Shown: positions 1 through 6,603 of the stretch, piece after piece
How the letters are laid out: each line of letters opens with the position of its first letter
Numbering within the stretch: the first letter of the stretch is position 1
The notes under the pieces: generated by a model
Told to the model about the DNA's origin: nothing
Seen by the model: only the letters and a program-made list of their open reading frames with translations
The model's database searches: none
Translations under genes and position numbers: made by a program
From: Thermococcus gorgonarius
GTDB lineage: Archaea; Methanobacteriota_B; Thermococci; Thermococcales; Thermococcaceae
Reading direction: 5' to 3'
Length of the DNA: 64,000 nucleotides
Assembly (NCBI RefSeq): GCF_002214385.1
Contig: NZ_CP014855.1
Location: forward strand, 1,302,001 to 1,366,000

Positions 1-1105
1 CCGGGGGGTAAGTTGAAGGTTCCTCACGACTTCCTTAACAACTGGATCCGGGATGGCGTATTCGTTTCCCCTCTGTTCAAGGTAGCCGTACTTGAGGAGG
101 TTCTTCAGGAGGATGGAGAACTTCGCGTCGTTTACCGGCCCCATCTTAAACTCAACGTACTCCTTTATGGTGCTCCATCTGGTATTTCCCATGGCGACGG
201 CTTTCAGTATAACTCCATATCTCCTGCTGTTCTGGATAAGGGATGAAAGCTCCTCCCGGATTAACTTTTCTGCCATGTTAAAGAGCTCATCCATGGCCTC
301 AGAGTGGGAAAGTCCTCTAACTCCGCGAAGGTACCCGTACATCGTGAGCCATCCAACTATGCCGTCGAGTCTCTCAACGGCTTCCTCGATCTCTTTTTCA
401 GCAGGTTCGATACCTATCTCTCCAAACCCCTTTCTGAGGAAGTCCACACTCTCCTCCCGTTTGAACCTTTGGAGCACTATCTCCCTCGCATACCTGCCGA
501 AGAGGGGTTTTTTGGGGTCTTCCAGGCCAAGGAAATCTTGGAGCATTCCCACCTCGGATCCCGTGAGTACAAAGGTTATCGCGGGCAGGGTATCCACTGC
601 ATAGGCTATCAGACCGTCGTACCTGATTCCGGAAAGCCTGAGGTATTGGGCCTCGTCAAAGGCAATTATCGCCCTTAGGTTCTCATTTTCGGCCCAGGAG
701 TTTATCTTTTCAAGGATTTCAGCAAGATCCGGTTTTCTCTCGAATTCTACACTCAGGCCTGAGATTCTAAGCCCCCTGATGGAGGACAATGTTTTTTCGA
801 GCCTCAACAGGAGGGATTTGTGTGGCTTAACCGTTGAGAGGAAAGAACTCAAAATTTTCTGTGCCAGAATCTCCTGGGGTATTGAACCGTGGGTGAAATA
901 GAGAGAGCGGACATCTATTTTTGCATAGGGAAATCCCAGCTCAGTGAGGGCGACGTTCAGGAGGGAGCTCTTTCCAAGGCGTCTTATGCCGAGCAGAAGA
1001 ATCAGATTTTCTCCCAAGTTCACTGCACTCCGAAACTCCCTCAGTTCATTCTCCCTATCGTACAGGTCCTCCCGCTTAGTTTTCGGCTGCAGGTCGAACA
1101 GCAAC
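1..1105 (-). CDS. Archaeal AAA ATPase (ATPase_2 plus DUF234 type), partial at window edge, apparent 5' frameshift
   Basis: The minus strand encodes a continuous P-loop ATPase. Near the N-terminus there is a Walker A (GIRRLGKSS), then a Walker B-like IIAFDEAQYL and a LTGSEVGML sensor-like stretch. The C-terminus ends in a winged-helix-like YAIPDPVVKEVVRNL segment, as in archaeal ATPases of the PF01637/PF03008 type. The stop lies beyond base 1. The family-like N-terminus (LLFDLQPK) begins at a TTG at 1105 but is in a different frame from the following TKREDLYDRENEL. A run of five T at 1080-1084 puts them out of frame; four would join them. Either the gene is frameshifted, or translation starts later, for instance at a GTG near 1023 just before the Walker A. 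Function beyond ATP binding is unknown; such genes are common and variable in Thermococcales. Confidence 0.75.
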
Positions 1106-1148
1106 TTACCCCACCGTAAGTTACTTACCCGGGGGTAAGTTATAAGGG
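1104..1148 (-). promoter_or_regulatory. Paired GTAAGTT inverted repeats over the ATPase promoter
   Basis: Two inverted repeats lie side by side: AACTTAC (1104-1110) with GTAAGTT (1117-1123), and ACTTACCC (1124-1131) with GGGTAAGT (1134-1141). On the minus strand a TATA-like CCTTATAACT overlaps the second one, about 30 bases before the TTG at 1105. The placement on the TATA box and start site suggests an operator, perhaps autoregulatory. The related GGGGTAAGTT also occurs at 5-14, inside the 3' end of the same gene. Confidence 0.55.
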
Positions 1149-1221
1149 TTTCGCAGCGATGACACAAAGGTTCAAGAATGAGAATAAAAAGCGAGAGAAG
1201 AAAGAAGAAAGGAAGAAGCAA

Positions 1222-1830
1222 TCAAAGCCCCAGCATCTCCCTCGCGGCCTTAACGCCCAGATCAAAGGCCTTCATGTTTACCTCGACGGTCTTCGGAGGG
1301 ACGCTGACCTTTATGACCTCCCTTACGTGCTCTGCCGAGAGCGGAAAGCCAGGCGTTTGAGTTAAAGCACCGATAAGGACGACGTTGGTTGTAACGATGT
1401 TTCCTGCCTCTATCGCGAGCTTCTCGGCGTCGAAGGCCATGAACTTGCCTCCAAAGTCCTCCTCGATGATCTTCTTCATCTCCTCAAGGGTCGGGTAAGT
1501 GGCGAGCCCCATCGAGACCTGAACCGGCGGAATGGGTCTGGAGTTCGTGAAGACAAGGCCACCCTTCTTGAGGTAGTTGATGTATCTCAAAGCCTCAACC
1601 GGCTCGAAGGAAAGGATAACATCGGCCTTTCCCTCGGGAACCATGGCGCCGTAAACGTCCTCGCCAAAGCGGACGTAGGCGATGACGCTTCCAAAGCGCT
1701 GGCTCATGCCGTGGACCTCGCCAACGCGAACCTTGTAGCCGGCGTGAAGAGCCGCCCAGCCGAGCAGGTTAGCGGCGGTGAGGATTCCCTGGCCGCCGAC
1801 ACCCGTGATAACGATGTTGTACTCCCTCAT
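1222..1830 (-). CDS. iorB: Indolepyruvate:ferredoxin oxidoreductase, beta subunit
   Basis: This is the small subunit (202 aa) of the cytosolic enzyme that oxidatively decarboxylates aryl 2-oxo acids (indolepyruvate, phenylpyruvate) to aryl-CoA with ferredoxin as acceptor. The N-terminus has the family's [20 protein letters not shown] motif, followed by a pyruvate-ferredoxin oxidoreductase gamma-type fold, with [10 protein letters not shown] and the C-terminal [13 protein letters not shown] region. The ATG at 1830 is chosen because a GGAGG-rich site sits just upstream and homologues start with this motif; a longer frame to 1917 only overlaps iorA. iorA ends one base upstream, so the pair is translationally coupled. 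Confidence 0.93.
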
Positions 1831-1831
1831 C

Positions 1832-3775
1832 TCACTCACCCTCCTCCATGGGCTCGAAGGCCCCAAACGGACATACCTGGGCGCAGCCACCGCAGCCCCA
1901 GCACATTGTCGGATCAACCTTGGCCTTCTTGGTCTCTGGATCCCAGTAGATGGCCGGACAGCCGTAGGCGTTGATACATATCTTACAGCCGGTACACTTG
2001 TCCTCGATGACGTGGTAGATCGGCCACTTCTCGCCCCTCCTTCTCATCTGGCCTATCCTGTAGAGTGCACACACCTGTCTCGAAACGATGACGCTCACAC
2101 CGTCGACGGCTAGAGCTTCCTTGATGGCCTTCTCAGTTGCCTTTATGTCATAGGGGTCAACAACCTTGACGAAGTCAGCCCCCATGGCCTTAGCCACGTC
2201 CTCTATTGGAATCCTCTTGCCCACTCCATGGGGTGTCTGGCCTGTGCTCGGATTCGGTTGGTCGCCAGTCATTGCAGTGACGAGGTTGTCAAGGACGACT
2301 ATGACAACGTTGGAGCGGTTGTAGATGGCATTCGCTAAAGCCGGAAGACCGGTGTGGAAGAACGTCGAGTCGCCTATGGTGGCGACTATTATCTTCTTCT
2401 CCTTGCCGGTCTTTCTCTCTTCCTCGCCCGGAACGCCATTCAAAGCGACGTCGAGACCGTGGGCCATGCCTATCGAGCCACCCATCGCTATGGTCGTGTC
2501 AACTGTCCTGAGCGGCGGGAGAACACCGAGGGTGTAACAGCCTATGTCGCTCGGGAATATCGCCCTTGGCGATGCCGCCCTTCTTATGGCGTAGAAGGTG
2601 TTCCTGTGCGGACAGGCCGGACAGAGGCTCGGCGGCCTCGGCGGGACTATAGCCTGAACCTTCTCGTACTTCCTGTCAATCTCCTCGAAGTCTACCGGTG
2701 TTTCCATATCGAGGAACTTCGCTATGGCCTCAACCGCCCTCCTCGTCGTCATCTCGTAAACGCGCGGAACGATGTCTTTTCCGTGAATCGGAATTCTAAG
2801 GCCTTTATCGTAGGCCCACACCTTCACCTGCTCCTCAACGACAGGCTCAAGCTCCTCAACGATGAGGACCTTCTCAAGCCCATCGAAGAACTTCTCAAGA
2901 AGGCCGTAGGGAACTGGATACGGTGTTCCAAGCTTGAGTATCTTCACGTTCTCGACGCCGAGCCATGCTAAAGCCTCCTTCACGTAGGCGTAGCTGAGGC
3001 CTGGAGCGATTATACCGACCTTCGCGTTCTCATCGCCTTCAATCCAGTTGAAGGGGCTCTCGTTGAACTCCTCGCGGAACTTCTCGATAGTTTCGAGCAG
3101 CCAGGGATGCTTCTTCTTCTGGAATGCCGGTATGTCAACGTACCTCTCCGGGTTCTTCTTGAAGTTCCCGAACTTCCTCTTTGCCTGCTTTATCTCCTCC
3201 GGCAGTTCTCCAAGGACGACGTCGCCGCGCATGTGGGAGCTTCTGGTTGTTGTCCTAAGGATTATCATCTGGTTGTACTTCTCGCTTATCTCGAAGGCGT
3301 ACTTTACCATGTCCTTGGCTTCCTGGACGCTTGAAGGCTCCAAAACGGGAATTCCAGCGTTCTTGGCTATCGCCCTTGTGTCCTGCTCGTTCTGGCTGCT
3401 CCACATGCTCGGGTCGTCGGCGACCATAACGATTAGCCCGCCGTCAACTCCCATGTAGCTGGCGGTCATGAAGCTGTCCATGGCAACGTTCAGGCCCACG
3501 TGCTTCATGGCCGTCATGGCCCTTAGGCCGCTCCAAGAAGCAGCTAAAGCCGTCTCAAACGCTACCTTCTCGTTGGTGGAGTACTCCATGTAGACGCCGG
3601 CCCTTTTGGCGACGGCCGCCATCGTGTCGGTAAGTTCAGAACTCGGCGTTCCGGGGTAGGCGGCAAAGACAGCTATATTGCCCTCCAAAGCTCCCCTGGC
3701 TATCGCCTGGTTGCCGAGGAGGAGAACCCTCTCCCCGGGCTTGTCCCACAACACTATGTCGGTAACTTTCGCCAT
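1832..3775 (-). CDS. iorA: Indolepyruvate:ferredoxin oxidoreductase, alpha subunit
   Basis: The large subunit (647 aa) carries the catalytic thiamine diphosphate and iron-sulfur centres. An N-terminal pyrimidine-binding domain holds [13 protein letters not shown] (about 38-50). A CPACPH motif lies near 385-390. The ThDP/Mg motif GDSTFFHTG begins near 469 and ends in VVLDN. Two 4Fe-4S clusters follow, at [13 protein letters not shown] (about 593-605) and [11 protein letters not shown] (about 624-634). The enzyme degrades aromatic amino acids after transamination. Its ATG at 3775 directly abuts the stop of the upstream PIN-domain gene, so the operon runs synthetase alpha, VapB, VapC, iorA, iorB. 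Full length, with no missing motif. Confidence 0.95.
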
Positions 3776-4237
3776 CTAAACCGCACCTCCAGATATCTCA
3801 TTAAGGTATTCATCAAGTTGGGTTTCGTCCAAAACATAAAACGCTCTAATACCCATCTTCCTGGCACGGGCCACCATATCCTTGTCAGATGATATGAGCA
3901 TCGCGTTGAACTTCTTGGCGGTTGCTATGAAGTAGGAATCCGCGGCCCTTGGATGAATCTTCCGGGCTATCGTCTTTGCATCCTCGAAGATCCAGTCTTC
4001 AGAGACCTGGAGAACCTTTGCCTCAAGGTATTCCAGGGTTAAATCAACTGCTTCCTCTTTACTGGTTAGTCTCTTCACTAAGCTTATGGTTTCAACTACT
4101 CCCAGGCGGGGCATTAGTAGGGGAATCCCCCTGGCTTCAGCCGCGGAGATTGCCCTTCTCGCCAGTCTGTTTCTATCTTCTTTACCTTTAACCGGAATGA
4201 TTGAGTCAATGAATGCCGATGTGTCAACCACGAGCAT
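3776..4237 (-). CDS. vapC: PIN-domain ribonuclease, VapC-type toxin
   Basis: A 153-aa PIN-domain protein. The acidic metal-binding positions are visible: VVDTSAFIDS at the start, a glutamate in GVVETISL, ADSYFIATA, and LISSDKDM near the end. Such proteins cleave RNA and act as toxins when paired with a small DNA-binding antitoxin. The ATG at 4237 is chosen because it begins the canonical LVVDTSAF motif; the frame reaches 4282 only through sequence that overlaps the upstream small gene. It overlaps that antitoxin candidate by 14 bases. The target RNA cannot be told from sequence. Confidence 0.85.
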   Translation of the reverse strand: MLVVDTSAFIDSIIPVKGKEDRNRLARRAISAAEARGIPLLMPRLGVVETISLVKRLTSKEEAVDLTLEYLEAKVLQVSEDWIFEDAKTIARKIHPRAADSYFIATAKKFNAMLISSDKDMVARARKMGIRAFYVLDETQLDEYLNEISGGAV

Positions 4238-4385
4238 TTCGCATCTCCCGCAGGATTCTGTGGGGATCCTCCTTAACTTCACCTACCAAGGCCTTCATTC
4301 TCTCGTAAAGGTCGTCTATGGTAATGGGATGAATAGGAGTTTTGGAGACCTCTCTCTTATGAGAATCCGCTTTAGCCTCCACCAT
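4224..4385 (-). CDS. vapB: Small VapB-like antitoxin candidate (53 aa)
   Basis: A short frame starts with ATG at 4385 and stops at 4224: MVEAKADSHKRE near the start, PIHPITIDDLYERMKALVGE in the middle, and ILREMRNARG at the end. It overlaps the PIN gene by 14 bases and begins immediately after the stop of the synthetase gene. Size, helical C-terminal half and exact pairing with a PIN gene fit an antitoxin; no ribbon-helix-helix or AbrB motif is clear, so the call rests mainly on position. Confidence 0.7.
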   Translation of the reverse strand: MVEAKADSHKREVSKTPIHPITIDDLYERMKALVGEVKEDPHRILREMRNARG

Positions 4386-5762
4386 TCACTCCCCCTTCAA
4401 AACCCCAGCGTTCTTCGCCTGCTGGACGAGTGCATATGCGCCAGCGGCGACATCTTCCGGCCTCTCGTAGCTCGGAATTCCGTTCTTCTCAAGCAGTTCC
4501 TTGGCCTTCTCACTCACGTAGCCGGCCATGAAGAGGCCGAGAACTGGCTTGCCATTGTTTACTTCCTTAACTGCCCTGATTACTCCTTCAGCGTGCTCCG
4601 TCGGTGTCATGCCGGCGAAGGTAGGGACGACACATATGGCTATGAGCATGTCAACGTTCTTGTCCTGCAGGAGGGCCTTCGCCGTCCTGTAGTAGTCTTC
4701 TCCTCTCGCGGAGGCTATCATATCAACGGGGTTCTTCACTGCCGCCATCGGCGGGAGGAAGGAGCGCAGCTCTTCTATGGTTTTCTCCTCAAGCTCGGCA
4801 AGCTTGAGTCCGCGCTTGTCAAGCTGATCGGCGGTCAGAACTCCCGGACCGCCTGCGTTGGTCATTATGGCAACGCGCTTGCCCCTGGGCAGGGGCTGTG
4901 TGAAGGCCCTCGCCATGCTGAGCATGTCGTCTATGGTCTCAGCTATGAGAACGCCGCTCTGCTTGAAAGCAGCTTCATAAATCTTCCAGCTTCCCGCCAG
5001 AGAACCGGTGTGGCTTGAAGCAGCTCTTGCACCGCTCTCGCTCCTTCCGGCCTTGAGGGCTATAACGGGCTTCTTCTTGGTGACTCGCTTGGCAACCTCA
5101 ATGAACTTCCTTCCGTCCTTAAGGCCCTCGATGTAGAGGGCTATCGCCTTGTCCTCCTCGGTGTCAGCCAGATACTCCATAAGCTCGGCGAAGTCGAGGT
5201 CTGCCATGTTGCCGACGCTCACGAACTTTGAGAAGCCGATTCCCTCTTTCACCGTCTTGTAGACTATTCCAGCTCCTAAGGCACCGCTCTGGCTGACGAA
5301 GGCTATGTCGCCTTTCTTGGCGTCCATTATGAAGGTCGCGTTCATGTCGTTGTGGGTGTTCATAACGCCGACGCAGTTCGGGCCGATGAGCCTCATGCCG
5401 TACCTGTGGGCAATCTCCACCAGTTCGCGCTCCTCCTTCTTGCCCTCCTCGCCGATTTCACCGAAGCCAGCAGTTATAATGACCGCTCCCTTGACGCCCT
5501 TTTCGCCACAGTCAATAAGCGTCTGCTTTACAAACCTCTTCGGGACGACTATTATTGCCAGATCAACCTCGTCCGGAATGTCCTTCACGTTCTTGTAGGC
5601 CTTAACGCCCTGAACGACCTCGTCCTTGACGTTTACGGGGTAGACCTTCCCGTCTTTGTATTTTTTCAGGTTCTTGAAGACCTCGTAGCCGAGTTTAAGC
5701 GGATCATTTGATGCTCCGATAACAGCTATTGCCCTCGGCTTGAAGAAGTAGTCGAGACTCAT
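4386..5762 (-). CDS. Acyl-CoA synthetase (ADP-forming), alpha subunit
   Basis: A 458-aa alpha chain of the archaeal ADP-forming acetate/aryl-acid CoA ligase. This enzyme turns acyl-CoA, ADP and phosphate into acid, CoA and ATP, the main substrate-level ATP step of Thermococcales. The N-terminal CoA-binding Rossmann domain has FFKPRAIAVIGAS. A SQSGALG stretch and the ASSHTGSLAGS segment carrying the phosphohistidine follow. No beta (ATP-grasp) chain is in the window; it is usually encoded elsewhere. Linkage to iorAB suggests the aryl-CoA-preferring isoform. The ATG at 5762 matches the family start and has GGTGA five bases upstream; a GTG at 5771 with GGAGGT seven bases upstream is an alternative. 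Confidence 0.9.
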   Translation of the reverse strand: MSLDYFFKPRAIAVIGASNDPLKLGYEVFKNLKKYKDGKVYPVNVKDEVVQGVKAYKNVKDIPDEVDLAIIVVPKRFVKQTLIDCGEKGVKGAVIITAGFGEIGEEGKKEERELVEIAHRYGMRLIGPNCVGVMNTHNDMNATFIMDAKKGDIAFVSQSGALGAGIVYKTVKEGIGFSKFVSVGNMADLDFAELMEYLADTEEDKAIALYIEGLKDGRKFIEVAKRVTKKKPVIALKAGRSESGARAASSHTGSLAGSWKIYEAAFKQSGVLIAETIDDMLSMARAFTQPLPRGKRVAIMTNAGGPGVLTADQLDKRGLKLAELEEKTIEELRSFLPPMAAVKNPVDMIASARGEDYYRTAKALLQDKNVDMLIAICVVPTFAGMTPTEHAEGVIRAVKEVNNGKPVLGLFMAGYVSEKAKELLEKNGIPSYERPEDVAAGAYALVQQAKNAGVLKGE

Positions 5763-5785
5763 TAACCTCACCGTTTAAACCTCCA

Positions 5786-5805
5786 CCGAATCGTATATAA
5801 GCTTT
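5786..5805 (-). promoter_or_regulatory. TATA-type promoter of the aryl-acid fermentation operon
   Basis: On the minus strand a clear archaeal TATA element (GCTTATATACG) lies about 35 bases before the synthetase start and is followed by a GGTGGAGGT ribosome site. It is the only strong promoter seen upstream of the five-gene minus-strand operon. Confidence 0.6.
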
Positions 5806-5925
5806 CCCAAAACGGTCATCGGAGAATTATAGAGCACTGTTGGGCCTTTTGAGTCACTGACGAGCCTAATTGGTCATCGAAAGCTTTAAGTAAGCTCGGG
5901 TTATTTTAATTTGGAGGTGGTGGAG

Positions 5926-6603
5926 ATGGTGAAGGTGAAGTTTCTGGGCCACGCTGCATTCTACATCGAAGGGAGCAAGAAAATCCTCATAGACCCGTTC
6001 CTCAGCGGCAACCCGCAGGCGGCAGTCAAGCCGGAGGAGCTTGAGGCCGACCTTATTCTGGTTACCCACGCCCACGGCGACCACATAGGTGATGCCATAG
6101 AGATAGCCAAGAGAACGGGAGCTAAGATAGTAGCAATGTATGATATTGCCAACTACATCAGCCAGCAGGCCAACGGCCAGGTTGAGACGGTAGGGATGAA
6201 CTACGGGCCGACGGAGGTTGACGGCGTTGGCATAATTCAGGTTCCGGCCTGGCACTCCAGCAGCGACGGCGTTCACAGCATAGGCAATGCCTCGGGCTTC
6301 ATAGTCAAGCTCGACGGGAAGACGATCTACCACGCCGGCGACACCTTCGTGTTCTCGGACATGGCCCTGTTCAGCGAGCTCTACGGGCCGATTGACGTTG
6401 CCCTGCTCCCGATAGGAGGCCACTTCACCATGGGGCCAAGGGAAGCTGCCAAGGCCGTCGAGCTGTTGAAGCCGAGGAAGGTCGTGCCGATGCACTACAA
6501 CACCTGGCCGCCGATCGCCCAAGATCCGGAGGAATTCAAGAGACTCGTTGGCAATAAGGCTGAAGTGGTTATTCTCAAGCCGGGCGAGGAGATTGAGGTT
6601 TGA
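5926..6603 (+). CDS. Metallo-beta-lactamase-fold hydrolase, UPF0173 family
   Basis: A 225-aa metal-dependent hydrolase. The zinc-binding motif THAHGDHIGD lies near residue 45, with further ligands in WHSS, IYHAGDT and PMHYNTW. This is the full UPF0173 layout. Substrates of the family are not established. The ATG at 5926 follows GGAGGTGG, a near-perfect ribosome site; the TTG at 5911 lies within that site and is not likely the start. It is divergent from the synthetase operon and stands alone, with a T-rich tract (6618-6624) after it that may act as a terminator. Confidence 0.88.
   Translation: MVKVKFLGHAAFYIEGSKKILIDPFLSGNPQAAVKPEELEADLILVTHAHGDHIGDAIEIAKRTGAKIVAMYDIANYISQQANGQVETVGMNYGPTEVDGVGIIQVPAWHSSSDGVHSIGNASGFIVKLDGKTIYHAGDTFVFSDMALFSELYGPIDVALLPIGGHFTMGPREAAKAVELLKPRKVVPMHYNTWPPIAQDPEEFKRLVGNKAEVVILKPGEEIEV

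Follow-up and report, generated by a model that had tools for sequence, protein, structure and literature searches.

A VapBC-like toxin-antitoxin candidate at the acs-iorA joint of Thermococcus genomes

Between the gene for an acyl-CoA synthetase subunit (acs) and that for an indolepyruvate:ferredoxin oxidoreductase subunit (iorA), the genome of Thermococcus gorgonarius carries a short antitoxin candidate (AT) and a PIN-domain toxin candidate (PIN). We consider it probable that the two genes form a site-bound VapBC-like type II toxin-antitoxin (TA) cassette with a stripped AF2212-type antitoxin, which is read from the acs promoter, spreads by allele replacement, and decays toxin first. PIN would act as a ribonuclease toxin, and AT, a toxin-binding remnant without the N-terminal AbrB-like half, would neutralise the toxin but control no promoter. 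Transcription of the pair would start at the acs promoter, and the abutting and overlapping frames would hold AT in its place before PIN. Transfer among Thermococcus species would occur by allele replacement over short homologies in the conserved tail of acs and head of iorA; in decay the toxin would be lost while the AT frame stays open.

Are chromosomal TA pairs selfish, regulatory or useful? The dispute is an old one, and a single slot that has three natural states in related species (pair, antitoxin-only, empty), with its flanks adjacent, amounts to a natural experiment on TA pair function. T. kodakarensis is described as naturally competent (PMC5988781), so that the three alleles could be swapped and competed in one strain. 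A reduced antitoxin of this kind further suggests that autoregulation can be dispensed with once a TA pair relies on a host promoter.

Gene order and expression of the locus

We analyzed a window of 64,000 nucleotides of the T. gorgonarius genome. Open reading frames and tblastn give the order acs, AT, PIN, iorA, iorB on the minus strand (Table 1). An initial annotation of this DNA had described a 53-residue antitoxin candidate directly after the acs stop, a 14-base overlap with PIN, and a PIN stop abutting iorA, and our coordinates and frames agree: the acs stop (4386-4388) abuts the AT start codon (4383-4385), and the PIN stop (3776-3778) abuts the iorA start codon (3773-3775). A ribosome-binding-like GGAGGTG lies just upstream of iorA, within the PIN 3′ end, and acs has an alternative start, a GTG at 5771. 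As in VapBC systems, the antitoxin gene is upstream of the toxin gene on the same strand and overlaps it; the 14-base overlap recurs in all 12 loci with both ends readable, namely the 11 full pairs and G015.

Table 1. Features of the acs-ior locus in the window.
Feature	Coordinates	Strand	Basis
acs, NDP-forming acyl-CoA synthetase alpha subunit	4386..5762	-	Pfam Succ_CoA_lig, CoA_binding_2, CoA_binding, Ligase_CoA_2 above cut-off
AT, antitoxin candidate, 53 aa	4224..4385	-	frame; profile matches; tail like AF2212-type antitoxin; model
PIN-domain (VapC-like) toxin candidate, 153 aa	3776..4237	-	PF01850; acidic residues; model; Foldseek
AT end/PIN start overlap, 14 bases	4224..4237	-	frames
iorA, indolepyruvate:ferredoxin oxidoreductase alpha	1832..3775	-	frame, Pfam
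iorB, indolepyruvate:ferredoxin oxidoreductase beta	1222..1830	-	frame and tblastn place
archaeal-promoter-like BRE/TATA site GGGAAAGCTTATATA, upstream of acs	5794..5808	-	score 12.7

Beside iorB, window positions 1-1221 hold a long open frame that by eye looks like an ATPase; repeats resembling CCCGGGGGTAAGTT lie around 1-14 and 1127-1141.

The minus strand of positions 1000-6000 was scanned for promoters with a hand-made, uncalibrated archaeal BRE/TATA matrix. The top site (12.7, at 5808) is upstream of acs, and weaker sites lie inside acs (9.8 at 5541, 8.7 at 5667, and 7.9 at 4786); the top score is 2.5 in the 300 bp upstream of AT and 4.9 inside PIN. Because 0.14% of window positions score 8 or more, the acs site is the only one that we regard as conspicuous. 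No terminator-like sites are listed on the minus strand from 5762 to 3775. Thus, a promoter and terminator isolating the pair, which the initial annotation had put forward as an argument against its own proposal, were not found. A sigma-70-type promoter and terminator scan gave results near the shuffle mean, and we discarded it as directed at the wrong promoter type.

In P. furiosus, the ACS2-alpha gene is reported to be in an operon with IOR genes that is up-regulated on peptides (PMC3942289), which makes co-regulation plausible here. The locus was not found by searching for terms in the main text of a T. kodakarensis start-site paper (PMC4247193). Co-transcription of the pair with the acs-ior genes is likely, and the pair probably leans on the acs promoter. 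The initial annotation saw here a possible tie between toxin dose and peptide metabolism, which we treat as a hypothesis.

The two proteins and their relatives

PIN matches PF01850 with a Pfam E-value of 9.8e-13. Residues D5, E49, D100, and D118, which we take to be the catalytic positions of the PIN fold, are unchanged in 15 aligned PINs, and their loss, the other argument that had been raised against the pair, is not seen. Outside those 15, the G058 PIN has a Gly at position 49, so full-length toxins need not all be active. The predicted structure has a mean pLDDT of 94.9, and a Foldseek search with it returns 21 PDB chains at an E-value of 0.001 or better, including PAE0151, VapC15, and VapC4; PIN models as a VapC-type fold. 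The initial description of a VapBC-like pair inside a fermentation gene row holds up, with a PIN-domain protein whose acidic residues are intact, as in VapBC toxins, and a co-oriented AT upstream of it, between acs and iorA. From its sequence, we infer that PIN may be a ribonuclease toxin.

AT matches nothing in Pfam above cut-off (the top weak match is KNTase_C, E-value 0.19) and nothing in NCBIfam, and PADLOC likewise gives it no useful name. Its model has a mean pLDDT of 70.9, with values below 50 at residues 1-3 and 5-13 (a predicted disordered start), helices at 23-34 and 41-51, and no strands. The VapBC antitoxin is described as having a DNA-binding domain (PMC3834315). Pfam, NCBIfam, and the model reveal no such domain in AT, although it could bind in some unfamiliar mode.

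The nearest PIN returned from outside Thermococcales, 47% identical, is at locus L199 (3919-4562 of an Archaeoglobales MAG). There the gene before PIN encodes an antitoxin of 71 residues that is a full-length member of PF01954 (E-value 4.6e-19). Scored with the AT profile, this antitoxin reaches 19.7 bits, compared with 9.1 for the best of 2000 shuffles, and profile positions 12-49 align on its residues 30-69, the L199 tail EIKEDPLQVLLEMRD aligning with AT EVKEDPHRILREMRN. In pairwise comparisons with 1000 shuffles of the L199 antitoxin each, the score against L199 was reached by 0-9 shuffles for 11 of the 12 ATs, and by 86 for the antitoxin-only G048. The tail shared with L199 is not seen with the seven Thermococcales AF2212 antitoxins tried, for which the AT profile stays at noise level (1.9 bits or less); hhalign, a weak comparison here, gives a probability of 15% for AT against Thermococcales AF2212 antitoxins, and the AF2212 model (PF01954) itself is absent among AT matches at an E-value of 1 or less. 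We also inspected 20 Thermococcales PIN paralogue loci, where the small protein upstream can be read in 19 cases, and all three of those tested match PF01954 (AF2212-like); in the window genome, a third AF2212 match is not among the matches listed. According to Makarova and co-workers, COG2880/DUF104 proteins are AbrB-like and associated with PIN proteins (PMC2701414).

Because AT aligns with the second half of the L199 antitoxin, it lacks the N-terminal half. AT thus appears to be the second half of an AF2212-type (AbrB-like) antitoxin, a good link that depends on one Archaeoglobales sequence. It would be an antitoxin that has lost the part recognisable as DNA-binding, and hence we call the pair VapBC-like.

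How does the pair compare with known systems? It shares with type II VapBC the small antitoxin gene first and PIN second, the overlapping frames, and a fold near VapC structures, but it has no recognisable DNA-binding domain in its antitoxin and no promoter-like site just upstream, and it sits in a row of core metabolic genes. Membership in VapBC proper would fail on the DNA-binding antitoxin. The L199 pair, AF2212-like (PF01954, COG2880/DUF104) plus PIN, resembles ours in PIN and in the antitoxin tail, but its antitoxin is full length and its gene context is different. VapBC4 of Sulfolobus acidocaldarius is likewise archaeal, with a reported RNase toxin and a neutralising antitoxin; it is described as bicistronic and linked to heat stress, however, and not as part of a fermentation operon (PMC11633383). 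In Thermus thermophilus HB8, though not in HB27, the lysine operon is reported to contain an MNT-HEPN module, likewise a TA-like pair in a metabolic operon of some strains (PMC2701414), but it belongs to other families and is described as one insertion, whereas here several alleles occupy one slot in many species, with antitoxin-only states. Orphan antitoxins reported in Klebsiella pneumoniae likewise lack a working toxin, and some of them lie within the context of the pair (PMC7192599), whereas those described below look like products of deletion at a single syntenic joint and have breakpoints in common. TK0136 has been named as the IOR alpha gene (PMC12016516). In the literature searched, mostly open-access main texts, we found no paper that deals with TK0137/TK0138 or describes TA genes inside the acs-ior operon, and no experiment on the AT/PIN pair.

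Occurrence and decay at the acs-iorA joint

Our sample is 94 Thermococcales genomes, with iorA matched in 88. We fetched 83 junctions (all but those of G003, G052, G061, and G082), which with the window's own makes 84, and we left out G067 (gap) and G072 (deletion across the joint) to obtain 82 scorable ones. The initial annotation had pointed to this junction across Thermococcales as the place to look, and the adjacency proves general while the pair does not: iorA comes next after acs, or after the cassette, at all 82. The full pair is present at 11 junctions; 7 have lost the toxin by deletion but keep AT open, and 64 have neither. With 64 of the 82 junctions empty, the pair is an optional guest and no settled part of the operon.

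The AT profile matches 18 of the 94 genomes at an E-value of 7.4e-9 or better, all 18 at the acs-iorA joint; the remaining matches (up to an E-value of 0.1) are at 0.0197 or worse and located elsewhere. Since AT is found at the same junction in 18 genomes, this is not a chance pair of open reading frames. PIN homologs at least 69% identical, together with a remnant in G015, are found in the 94 genomes solely at this joint, and other PIN matches at an E-value of 1e-5 or better have identities of 42% or less. Among the 18 cassette genomes, 8 are draft assemblies in roughly 30 contigs or more.

We also searched 115 genomes of the phylum and observed matches at an E-value of 1e-20 in 38, in 3 of 12 genera. 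A contig scan with two short peptide patterns produced 47 stretches, of which 4 were confirmed (two Thermococcaceae MAGs, one Archaeoglobales MAG, and one Geoglobus MAG); the scan missed most of the 11 known Thermococcales pairs, so that absence elsewhere is not proven by it. Plasmid and phage collections gave no cassette match, and none was confirmed in IMG/VR contigs. The cassette consists of AT and PIN alone, always at the same joint, without the machinery, such as a transposase or integrase, of a mobile element that performs its own transposition or integration, and by eye its edges are such that a short spacer has been replaced. On six 54-genome trees, parsimony gives 11-13 changes between cassette and empty junctions, near the shuffles (means 14.6-14.7, minima 9-10). 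The state is thus almost as patchy as random, and gain and loss are not separable by these counts.

In the seven antitoxin-only loci, G015 has a toxin with an in-frame internal deletion and an open AT, and G041 has an open AT and the final 24 toxin codons. G055, G048, G062, G020, and G018 retain only the last toxin codons, which hold the ribosome-binding-like site of iorA. Breakpoint sharing suggests four distinct toxin deletions (G055 and G048; G062, G020, and G018; G041; G015), the four joints having been compared by eye. No toxin is kept beside a broken AT at any of the 82 scorable junctions. The cassette appears to decay by toxin loss while the AT frame stays open.

Selection can be compared between these states. 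In 13 within-allele pairs, dN/dS is 0.04-0.23 for PIN and 0.04-0.27 for AT. Between antitoxin-only loci, AT has a dN/dS of 0.44-0.59, in four comparisons that have few sites and are not independent; between a toxin-deleted locus and an intact relative it is 0.12 (G041/G029) and 0.08 (G015/G014). The constraint on AT looks relaxed in antitoxin-only loci. This pattern fits an antitoxin that is needed only while the toxin is present, and it speaks against strong selection for antitoxin-only alleles.

Some junctions have peculiarities of their own. In G072, the nearest to the window genome on the rpo tree, acs residue ~425 runs into iorA residue ~67 (L067, ~3585-3590 of the oriented locus), so that the acs tail, the joint, and the iorA head are gone, either by a real deletion or by an assembly error. 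In G031 (L114), iorA is in two frames, split near codon 344. The empty joints of G060, G050, G057, G056, G019, G043, G021, G024, and G065 have in common a T-rich spacer of 37-40 bases (CTTTCATTTTTCATC-like), and they span lineages that the rpo tree sets apart.

Exchange of the cassette and alternative readings

The PINs of the 11 pair genomes fall into allele I (G000, G049, G058, G059), allele II (G023, G027, G068, G029), and allele III (G014, G071); G032 stands by itself. Of the 13 pairs of genomes that have the same allele, 10 show a PIN dS below that of rpo, acs, and iorA, and G029 is a member of each of the three that do not. Between alleles, PIN dS is saturated or at least 1.7, so PIN is not merely slow at silent sites. 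In AU tests with the 11 genomes, the PIN data reject the trees of rpo (p 4.4e-8), acs (1.7e-45), and iorA (about 2.3e-7), and with the 7 genomes of 1-2 contigs they still do (5.8e-12, 2.0e-11, and about 4.2e-4, respectively). With 11 genomes, however, each gene rejects the trees of all the others, acs and iorA included, which means that recombination affects the operon in its entirety and that the signal is in part not specific to the cassette; with 7 genomes, rpo does not reject the acs tree.

The cleanest case of cassette exchange is that of G071, G014, and G070, all single-contig genomes. The cassettes of G071 and G014 are 92.1% identical in nucleotides. The G071 flanks are closer to those of G070, which is empty (acs 91.7%, iorA 96.3%), than to those of G014 (86.6% and 82.0%), and the G071 cassette is at the exact place of an 11-base spacer in G070. 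The nearest rpo neighbors of pair genomes are often empty (G070 for G071, G057 for G049), in a list that counts G067 and G072 as empty. Antitoxin-only alleles seem to be exchanged as well: G018 and G020 differ at 3 of 177 bases in the junction, at 9% in the acs 3′ end, and at 6% in iorA (Fisher p 0.0004 and 0.005). Base composition was rejected as a mark of foreign origin; the cassette G+C (46-50%) is below that of the flanks and equal to that of the whole window (48.4%).

Based on PIN dS and tree rejection, the pair appears to move horizontally, with this slot apparently its only target. Short-homology replacement is a plausible route, since 40-nt flanks are reported to be enough for marker replacement in P. 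furiosus COM1 (PMC3462420).

These data bear on several other readings of the locus. If the pair were a conventional VapBC locus that the Thermococcus ancestor already had and that was since inherited vertically, with many losses and no horizontal exchange, we would understand why every copy found is at one syntenic site and why several decayed forms point to frequent loss; but the low PIN dS in 10 of 13 within-allele pairs, the saturated or high values between alleles, and the rejection of the rpo tree by PIN make this quite improbable. Alternatively, the pair could be a domesticated regulator, in which PIN cleaves the acs-ior mRNA and AT sets the extent, so that peptide fermentation is tuned. 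The place between two enzymes with abutting frames, the operon reported as peptide-responsive in P. furiosus (PMC3942289), and purifying selection on both PIN and AT all agree with such a role. We still find it unlikely, as the pair is absent at most scorable junctions with acs and iorA still adjacent, the nearest rpo neighbors of pair genomes (such as G070 and G057) often do without it, and the toxin has been deleted in at least four ways. Finally, AT could be a leader peptide or a translational coupler, and PIN a housekeeping RNase or an inert passenger. AT is indeed very short, of no known family, and predicted to be disordered at its start, but its tail is like that of the AF2212 antitoxin beside the nearest outside PIN, its frame is open in 7 of 7 toxin-deleted loci, and its constraint looks relaxed in comparisons between antitoxin-only loci (0.44-0.59 vs. 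0.04-0.27), which leaves this reading with very little probability.

The cassette proposed at the outset could also take part in an allelic addiction cycle, an idea that we regard as doubtful. Pair, antitoxin-only, and empty alleles, swapped by homologous recombination, would behave as killer, immune, and sensitive, with an antitoxin that has no promoter of its own. An empty allele replacing the pair would remove AT while PIN persists, and the pair allele would spread; an antitoxin-only allele could safely replace the pair, and an empty one could replace the antitoxin-only allele when the toxin is rare. The seeming movement of antitoxin-only alleles (G018/G020) favors the cycle, but those alleles look relaxed, as mere decay predicts.

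A further observation concerns iorB. In the 11 pair loci its sequences form two diverged classes, with identities of ~73-81% from one class to the other and at least 87% inside a class, and the classes do not follow species boundaries. Despite a common cassette and similar acs, G014 and G071 belong to different iorB classes.
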